64,000 nt of DNA from Sulfurospirillum sp. SCADC (GTDB taxonomy: Bacteria; Campylobacterota; Campylobacteria; Campylobacterales; Sulfurospirillaceae), in contig NZ_JQGK01000006.1 of NCBI RefSeq assembly GCF_000743525.1, positions 62,001-126,000 on the forward strand, written 5' to 3'. The translations under genes were made by a program, and so were the position numbers. The notes beneath the pieces were generated by a model that made no database searches, was not told the DNA's origin, and saw only the letters and a list, made by a program, of their open reading frames with translations. This document shows, one piece after another, positions 62,985 through 63,879 of this stretch; position 1 is the stretch's first letter; every line of letters begins with the position of its first letter.

Positions 62985-63020
62985 AACGCGTTCCTCTCTA
63001 TGTTTGAGATGGAACGCGTT
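62985..63020. terminator. Long hairpin between DedA gene and the micro-ORF
   Basis: AACGCGTTCC (62985-62994) pairs perfectly with GGAACGCGTT (63011-63020); the 16-nt interior adds an inner TCTC/GAGA stem. Likely a shared terminator for the convergent DedA and micro-ORF transcripts. Confidence 0.65.
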
Positions 63021-63022
63021 TG

Positions 63023-63127
63023 CTAAAATATCTTATTGCTTAAAATAAGCATTTTCTGCTCAAAACGGTTCATAAACTCATTGTAGGCTTTGCGTGAGTG
63101 ACTGATCGTACAGATTAAACTTTTCAT
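63023..63127 (-). CDS. 34-residue micro-ORF divergent from the S24 repressor
   Basis: Thirty-four codons with GAGGAG 8 nt before the ATG (63127). The product is basic (MKSLICTISHSRKAYNEFMNRF...) with a C-terminal amphipathic stretch; no family recognised. Its start lies 92 nt from the repressor ATG with operator-like sequences in between, a layout like phage cI/cro switches. Too short to be sure. Confidence 0.45.
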   Translation of the reverse strand: MKSLICTISHSRKAYNEFMNRFEQKMLILSNKIF

Positions 63128-63149
63128 TGAAGGCTCCTCTGTTATAAAA

Positions 63150-63208
63150 TTTTCACTATTGTATACAAAATGAAAAATATGCTACAATAATATTTCAAAA
63201 TGAAATAT
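63150..63208. promoter_or_regulatory. S24 repressor promoter with two operators
   Basis: Operator 1: TTTTCA (63150-63155) and TGAAAA (63171-63176) around the perfect palindrome TTGTATACAA (63159-63168), which contains the -35-like TTGTAT. Operator 2: ATATTTCA-AAA-TGAAATAT (63190-63208), perfect 8-bp arms, just after the -10 TACAAT (63183-63188; 18-bp spacing). Both share the TTTCA/TGAAA arms, so the repressor probably binds both. Confidence 0.65.
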
Positions 63209-63219
63209 TGGAGGACAAA

Positions 63220-63879
63220 ATGCCAAATATTTTAGCGGTTTTGCATAAAGTGAAGGATATTCTCTCCCAAGAGTTGGGTGAACGTAAAGTATTTGATAAA
63301 GATGTCGCAGAAGCGTTGGGCATTAATCAATTGACCCTTGCGACGATGAAAAATCGTGCCAAAATTCCCTATAAAGAGATTCTTGAATTTTGTGCGAAAC
63401 GTAAAATCTCCATTAACTGGCTTTTGTTTGACCAAGTGGTGGAAAGCTTGCAAGCAGAGACCGATAAATTTGCACGGGTGCATTACTTTAGAGATATTTA
63501 CGCTTCAGCCGGTGGTGGAGCACTGAATGAAGACGAAGAAGGTGAGATGATGTACCTTGATGAGGAGATCGTTGAAAAGCTTGGCGGACTTGGGATGATT
63601 AAGCACATTCAAGCCATCAATGTTTTGGGCGATTCGATGGAGCCAACACTCTTTAGTGGGGATGTGGTGTTCATCAACAAAGAGTACACCAACGCTTTAA
63701 AATCGGGTATTTACGTAGTCTCTACGCCTGTGGGATTGTTTATTAAACGTCTTCAACTGCATGCCAATGGCACCGTAGCTTTGGTCTCCGATAACGAAGC
63801 GTATGCGCCTGAAGTGATCAATGCGGAAGATGTGCAAGTACTTGGCAAAGTGGTCGGTAAGCTCTCTTCTAATATTTAA
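63220..63879 (+). CDS. LexA/CI-like transcriptional repressor (HTH plus S24 peptidase domain)
   Basis: A 219-residue repressor. An N-terminal helix-turn-helix (DKDVAEALGINQLTLATMKNR, about residues 25-46) of the CI-repressor type is followed by an S24 domain with catalytic Ser in LGDSMEPTLFSGD (about 143) and Lys in GLFIKRLQ (about 178). A possible self-cleavage Ala-Gly is in YASAGGGA (about 98-105). GGAGG precedes the ATG at 63220. Campylobacterota lack classical LexA; this family may serve a similar damage-response or phage-like role. Confidence 0.88.
   Translation: MPNILAVLHKVKDILSQELGERKVFDKDVAEALGINQLTLATMKNRAKIPYKEILEFCAKRKISINWLLFDQVVESLQAETDKFARVHYFRDIYASAGGGALNEDEEGEMMYLDEEIVEKLGGLGMIKHIQAINVLGDSMEPTLFSGDVVFINKEYTNALKSGIYVVSTPVGLFIKRLQLHANGTVALVSDNEAYAPEVINAEDVQVLGKVVGKLSSNI

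Follow-up and report, generated by a model that had tools for sequence, protein, structure and literature searches.

A CI-type S24 repressor as a probable LexA substitute in Sulfurospirillum, and the conserved micro-protein gene that faces it

Introduction

Control of the DNA damage response does not always lie with LexA. To judge from the excerpts of the literature cited below, S24 repressors other than LexA have taken over this role in Bacteroidetes, Acinetobacter and Francisella. The non-canonical LexA of Bacteroidetes (PMC8565304) resembles the Sulfurospirillum repressor studied here in combining a CI-type HTH with an S24 domain, an Ala-Gly site and a Ser-Lys pair, and it likewise runs an SOS regulon in a phylum that was thought to be without LexA. 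It differs in that the family is described as restricted to Bacteroidetes and in its operator, one of the two named being CTAA-N5-TTAG; the excerpt mentions no divergent micro-protein, whereas one is encoded beside the Sulfurospirillum repressor. In Acinetobacter, a genus without LexA, the UmuDAb-DdrR system (PMC7273328, PMC11332147, both in excerpt) also comprises an S24 repressor, which controls Y-family polymerases, and a divergent small partner gene, the promoters overlapping the operator. DdrR binds UmuDAb and strengthens its binding to DNA. However, DdrR is genus-restricted and has 78-81 aa, whereas the Sulfurospirillum peptide has 34 aa and its relatives mostly 23-44; UmuDAb derives from UmuD, unlike the CI-type repressor considered here; and the box-defined regulon presented below includes recA, a radical-SAM (rSAM) gene and dinD, unlike that of UmuDAb-DdrR as these excerpts describe it.

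Two further systems are close. FddR of Francisella (PMC13148647, in excerpt) is again a co-opted, autoregulated phage-type S24 repressor, likewise paired with a divergent gene, either dinB or a gene of unknown function, but its motif, GTG-N11-CAC, is different. The small protein gp7 of a Bacillus thuringiensis phage also binds an S24 repressor, LexA, and modulates its DNA binding (PMC11332147); the Sulfurospirillum peptide is likened to it by description only, and gp7 differs in being phage-encoded. For Campylobacterota, Helicobacter pylori and Campylobacter jejuni are described as being without lexA in the part of PMC2912397 that we cite, and in the open-licence PMC literature we found no SOS regulator of this phylum, Sulfurospirillum included, among the matches listed.

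Here we analyze a repressor locus in a 64-kb window (the whole stretch of DNA under study, 64,000 nucleotides) taken from the 2.66-Mb genome, on 38 contigs, of Sulfurospirillum sp. SCADC. The box-defined regulon, its conservation, the coding nature of a divergent micro-ORF and the absence of the LexA domain were all computed directly. The locus appears to be one more case in which a phage-type repressor has been remade into an SOS switch. It provides free-living Campylobacterota with a concrete, testable SOS regulon and a defined box, and reveals a conserved micro-protein gene that has no Pfam family. Set against the systems above, the micro-protein family and a link to restriction-modification (RM) genes appear to be new.

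Results and discussion

A CI-type S24 repressor in a genus without the LexA DNA-binding domain

The proposed LexA substitute is a 219-aa protein encoded at 63220..63879 on the plus strand, with a CI-type HTH and a predicted autocleavable S24 domain. Its S24 nature, initially read from the ORF alone, is borne out by Pfam, which matches Peptidase_S24 (PF00717, 1.7e-18) and Phage_CI_repr (PF07022, 3.8e-5). Among 28 aligned orthologs, 66-100% identical, the cleavage site A97-G98 and the dyad S139 and K176 are invariant (28/28). These residues correspond, by sequence, to the scissile Ala-Gly bond and the Ser-Lys dyad of LexA-like S24 SOS regulators, whose roles in cleavage and catalysis are known for the family and restated in the excerpt of PMC8565304. 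NCBIfam models of LexA and UmuD match the C-terminal half of the protein far under their cut-offs (for TIGR00498, 27.1 bits against 110.95), and the winged HTH of LexA proper (PF01726) is missing, the N-terminus matching Phage_CI_repr instead. A PDB sequence-profile search with the repressor returned no chain at E <= 1e-5, and its structure prediction is poor (pLDDT 47.9). The initial annotation had noted that Campylobacterota lack canonical LexA, and our survey agrees: PF01726 is found in none of 17 genomes of the genus, against 10 of 14 control genomes.

The repressor gene is separated by a 92-bp intergenic gap from a divergent ORF of 34 codons (63023-63127, minus strand). A hairpin of no assigned strand, AACGCGTTCC...GGAACGCGTT (62985..63020), lies between the end of this micro-ORF and the upstream gene and is a possible shared terminator; a terminator scan of the locus found none, and several orthologs display, by eye, other hairpin-like sequences at the corresponding place. 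An Rfam search gave a single chance-level match, under the gathering score. The upstream neighbours, named by eye, resemble ordinary chromosomal genes: an ABC transporter, a YSC84-like and a DedA-like gene.

A palindromic box marks SOS-type genes

The gap holds a 21-bp perfect palindrome, AATATTTCA-AAA-TGAAATATT (63189..63209, unstranded), located between the likely -10 and the ribosome-binding site of the repressor gene and just 5' of the likely -35 of the micro-ORF. Judged by its sequence and by the recurrence of the same box at other genes, it is a genuine operator. Its presence at orthologous loci, on which the first reading of the locus had been staked, holds throughout: all 30 orthologous promoters carry the palindrome, with 0-1 mismatches over 14 core positions. 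The initial annotation had further proposed a genome-wide operator search as a route to a regulon, and this search succeeds. Sites matching ATATTTCANNNTGAAATAT number 8 with at most one mismatch and 13 with at most two, compared with 0 and 3 for the reversed pattern in the same genome, so that the palindrome is more than a chance feature; at up to three mismatches there is no excess (34 real sites, 39 in the reversed control). Each of the eight best sites has an ORF start within the next 120 bp, at distances of 11-96 bp to the likely start codon, where for one ORF, encoding a zinc-ribbon-like protein, an internal ATG was taken as the start. Noncoding DNA in such positions makes up about 3.9% of the window, which gives a naive binomial probability of 5e-12 for eight out of eight.

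The genes that follow these eight sites are the repressor gene itself, recA (TIGR02012, 3.5e-169), a Y-family polymerase gene (PF00817), a radical-SAM gene (TIGR03916, 'putative DNA modification/repair radical SAM protein', 2.1e-164), the zinc-ribbon-like ORF, an N6-methyltransferase gene, a gene for an NgoPII restriction endonuclease and a C5-methyltransferase gene. Five additional sites have two mismatches: one is 56 bp before dinD (NF008573, 1.1e-106), a second is in the intergenic DNA ahead of a different ORF, and the remaining three fall within ORFs. The regulon marked by the box includes recA, the Y-family polymerase and dinD.

The two transcription units appear to share their promoter region. 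The likely repressor promoter (63159..63188, plus strand), placed by eye and with the help of orthologs, has a weak -35, TTGTAT (63159-63164), 18 nt and a -10, TGCTACAAT (63180-63188), that reads TATAAT in many relatives; a consensus promoter scan called a slightly shifted site. The ribosome-binding site GGAGG follows at 63210..63214 (plus strand). On the minus strand, the likely micro-ORF promoter (63158..63187, by eye) overlaps the former, with TTGTAG (63187-63182) as -35, 18 nt and TACAAT (63163-63158) as -10, and was not called by the consensus scan. The micro-ORF's ribosome-binding site, GAGGAG (63134..63139, minus strand), stands 6 nt before its ATG. At recA, the polymerase gene, dinD and the NgoPII gene, the box core is followed, by eye, by two bases and a -35-like TTGAAC, TTGAAA, TTGACA or TTGTCA. 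The micro-ORF side, read on the minus strand as box core, 3 nt, TTGTAG, 18 nt and TACAAT, has nearly the layout of recA, the Y-family polymerase and dinD, and the palindrome is thus also placed like an SOS box of the micro-ORF. By its position, the element first assigned to the interval between the repressor's -10 and start would double as the SOS box of the divergent gene.

The initial annotation had described two well-formed inverted repeats in this promoter. The palindrome at 63189-63209 stands, but the repeat over the -35 is only 75% complementary. As a candidate second operator, O1, this repeat was rejected: when 30 loci were aligned to the main operator, offset -41 gave fewer mismatches (mean 5.0) than the offsets taken together (9.0 +/- 1.2), but the drop stems from a TGTAATA half-site, which is at the same time the likely promoter element. 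In the window itself, the repeat departs from the operator by 5-8 mismatches at the three offsets tested.

Conservation of the box within and beyond the genus

The box was then scored before orthologous genes. For recA, 29 of 30 genomes queried gave a match; with partial or broken copies dropped (G018, G023) and the window's own genome added, the set comprised 28 genomes, of which 26 upstream regions were scored, the start not being found in G027 and G052. The box is present with at most one mismatch in 20/26 and at most two in 22/26, mostly at -114, compared with 0/26 at up to two mismatches for the reversed control. The exceptions have three (G025), four (G024) and five mismatches (G031), and G015 has five within 250 bp and a one-mismatch site 265 bp upstream. 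Before the radical-SAM gene, for which 24 loci were taken and the start could not be located in four, the box lies at -56 or -57 in 18/20 scored regions (one mismatch or fewer) or 19/20 (two or fewer), compared with 0/20 for the reversed control. For the Y-family polymerase (26 loci, start not found in six, no separate control), all 12 scored genomes of the genus have a box 58-90 nt before the reference point: four are exact, six have two mismatches and two have three, the last being weak and close to chance level. Outside the genus, the polymerase box has one mismatch in G028 and G042 and three in G031, and is absent from G052 and G054, members of other families (five mismatches); in G027, G030 and G033 it is the box of a promoter shared with the micro-ORF. 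Genome-wide, sites with at most one mismatch outnumber the reversed control in 14 of 16 further genomes of the genus, with no excess in G009 (4 against 6) and G015 (4 against 4).

A relaxed box, TATDDCA-N3-TGHHATA, extends the picture to other genera. Twenty of 21 outside-genus genomes queried gave a recA gene, preceded by an exact relaxed box in 14/20 and by a one-mismatch box in 3/20 (reversed control, 0/20 and 1/20). These boxes occur in Sulfurimonas, Sulfuricurvum and Sulfurovum, in a tubeworm-associated bacterium and in other Campylobacterales. Nitratifractor has a recA box with two mismatches, and none was seen in two S. arcachonense-type genomes, one of them with 104 bp of upstream DNA only. 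The relaxed box also precedes the S24 gene, with at most one mismatch, in 19 of 20 outside-genus genomes. Upstream of recA in Sulfuricurvum (L307, L313, L315, L318, L319), we observed two SOS-type boxes 28 bp apart, where Sulfurospirillum has one.

A LexA-like SOS regulon or a phage switch

The palindromic box at the repressor's own gene, at recA and at translesion polymerase genes is, by sequence, what is expected of a LexA-like S24 regulator. Because this box is conserved at recA, the radical-SAM gene and the Y-family polymerase gene across the genus, and at recA beyond it, we consider it highly likely that the CI-type S24 repressor is a LexA substitute in charge of an SOS regulon, micro-protein gene included. 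The repressor would bind TATTTCA-N3-TGAAATA boxes adjacent to the -35 elements of the genes under its control and silence recA, the Y-family polymerase, the radical-SAM DNA-repair gene, dinD, its own gene and that of the 34-aa micro-protein. Upon DNA damage, RecA filaments would trigger its self-cleavage at Ala97-Gly98 through Ser139/Lys176, leading to induction of all these genes, that of the micro-protein among them. Repressor binding, self-cleavage and damage induction are inferred steps of this scheme. The micro-protein would then be a genuine SOS gene product and may modulate the repressor.

The initial annotation had proposed a switch that was either damage-inducible or cI/cro-like. The boxes at recA, the Y-family polymerase and dinD, an SOS-type regulon, uphold the former and leave cI/cro as the weaker half. 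A domesticated phage immunity switch, for which boxes at recA, the polymerase and RM genes would be coincidental or belong to some other regulator, would agree with the phage CI type of the HTH and with relatives on viral contigs (40% for the best near-full-length one, L322, and 25-44% for the others, among the matches listed). Against it, the boxes occupy fixed positions before recA, the polymerase and the radical-SAM gene genus-wide, with related recA boxes beyond; the genome holds no second match to the repressor (E <= 0.001); and the upstream neighbours appear chromosomal. Nor does the locus encode a second divergent DNA-binding protein in the manner of Cro, as the micro-protein, with 34 aa and a single predicted helix, has no HTH. 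We regard the phage switch as highly improbable.

A divergent micro-protein gene

The 34-residue ORF, MKSLICTISHSRKAYNEFMNRFEQKMLILSNKIF (63023..63127, minus strand), is a real gene. The initial annotation had pointed to this divergent ORF and its strong ribosome-binding site and had named its conservation as a check; both ORF and conservation hold up. It recurs at the corresponding position in every genome of the genus that was sampled, 24 of 24 (the window's own and 23/23 others), always with 34 residues, and is therefore more than a chance ORF; two other genera contribute four more genomes that have it. Read in its own frame, the micro-ORF has a pN/pS of 0.21 within the genus, whereas the five other frames give 1.18, 1.27, 1.51, 0.39 and 1.64, which indicates purifying selection. 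AlphaFold2 predicts one helix over residues 2-33 (mean pLDDT 81), apparently amphipathic by eye, and the protein has no Pfam match.

To follow the peptide further, 80 loci were taken as the best among 525 related ones; 79 of the 80 had sufficient upstream DNA, and divergent ORFs of 20-60 codons with an ATG and a ribosome-binding site were retained. Such a micro-ORF is found in 73 of these 79 loci, compared with 7.2% when the DNA is dinucleotide-shuffled and with 9 of 78 loci on the other strand; the loci are interrelated and the 73 cases thus not independent. Together with the 24/24 score within the genus, this provides the small divergent gene, kept across a lineage, that characterizes systems of the UmuDAb-DdrR type. 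None was found by the above definition in six loci (L185, L200, L204, L214, L219, L222), and the micro-ORF of L210 is probably due to chance. The peptides, mostly of 23-44 aa, were sorted by pattern: 13 belong to class A, 5 to A', 21 to B and 32 to C, and two, one of them that of L210, to none. Class A (Sulfurospirillum) and class B (Sulfurimonas, Sulfuricurvum) are homologous by profile comparison (hhalign probability 95.7%, E 9.5e-9, 0/60 column shuffles as good), while A' is a weaker relative (34.6%, again 0/60). Class C, from Sulfurovum and relatives, was rejected as a homolog of class A and is treated as a different peptide because 21/60 column shuffles score equally. It is well conserved, mostly with 35-44 aa (NKELLSYAIKMGCKTAAEFALFLK...), and is encoded beside the repressor in L164-L195, although not at every locus.

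Possible roles of the peptide

Our leading guess, by analogy with DdrR and gp7, is that the peptide may be a partner or co-regulator of the repressor, although we would not go so far as to call this probable. We favour it because repressor and peptide remain side by side at almost every locus, including those of G004 and G025, two 99% complete drafts in which no PF00817 polymerase match was found. A modulator role is challenged by the S. arcachonense-type loci, where the peptide stop overlaps the start of the Y-family polymerase (TAATG). This overlap (-1 in L155 and L158) would instead befit a peptide that is mainly a polymerase accessory, made together with the enzyme, its position next to the repressor being a relic of an ancestral arrangement in which a repressor faced a peptide-polymerase unit. 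G033 and G030 share the stop/start junction, the polymerase of L171 begins 8 nt downstream of the peptide, and several more distant S24 genes directly face a Y-family polymerase. We nevertheless find an accessory unlikely: the peptide is retained in G004 and G025, the scored Sulfurospirillum genomes have their polymerase elsewhere with a box of its own, and class A C-termini, SN(K/L)(I/L)F, are without the glutamine that the beta-clamp motif contains.

The same retention in genomes where no polymerase was found, and a short, strongly conserved helix under the control of the box, would suit an SOS inhibitor of cell division or the cell cycle, one effector among the many that the repressor would control. 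SulA and SidA offer a functional parallel, as small SOS division inhibitors. SidA, however, has a membrane-spanning stretch, which the peptide lacks by eye; the peptide has no Pfam match, and it adjoins the repressor in 73/79 loci (from the best 80 of 525) rather than lying elsewhere. Such an inhibitor seems to us rather doubtful, and the repressor partner remains our preferred reading. A different candidate, mimicry of the RecA N-terminal segment, was rejected, as profile comparison found nothing, with a probability of 1.5% or less.

Restriction-modification genes and other box-bearing genes

SOS-type boxes also stand before unrelated DNA methyltransferase and restriction genes, in the window's own genome (L088, L091, L092) and, among 20 chosen sites annotated in other genomes, in G013 (L286, L295) and G007 (L291, L297). 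Distances are about 54-65 bp, or 15-60 bp at L286 depending on the start codon, and the gene kinds include N6, C5, Dam-type and NgoPII. The annotated RM sites differ between genomes, which suggests that the box has been recruited repeatedly, and the boxes suggest restriction-modification under damage control. If true, methylation would rise with DNA damage, providing a built-in alleviation of restriction. The recurrence of these boxes thus suggests a directly testable link between DNA damage and restriction.

A broader and more doubtful reading is that much of Campylobacterota might possess an SOS system that has so far gone unrecognised and that lastingly couples a CI-type repressor to a co-regulating helical micro-protein, mostly of fewer than 45 residues, with an unrelated replacement in Sulfurovum and RM genes possibly recruited.

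Other genes bear the box as well. The zinc-ribbon-like protein, so named by eye from its CPYCGG motif, has about 116 aa, is conserved and has no Pfam or NCBIfam match; its box is present in the four Sulfurospirillum genomes examined (L087, 1501-1519; L279, L280, L281), which makes it a candidate new SOS gene. One-mismatch boxes lie about 50-60 bp upstream of RhuM/Fic-domain genes (L290, L298). Finally, second S24 repressors (L074, L084, L072, L076, L078) directly face an apparent Y-family polymerase, with no micro-ORF in between. These pairs may be mobile repressor-polymerase modules, since G016 has two such units, L074 and L084, on a single small contig (C2, 39.9 kb).
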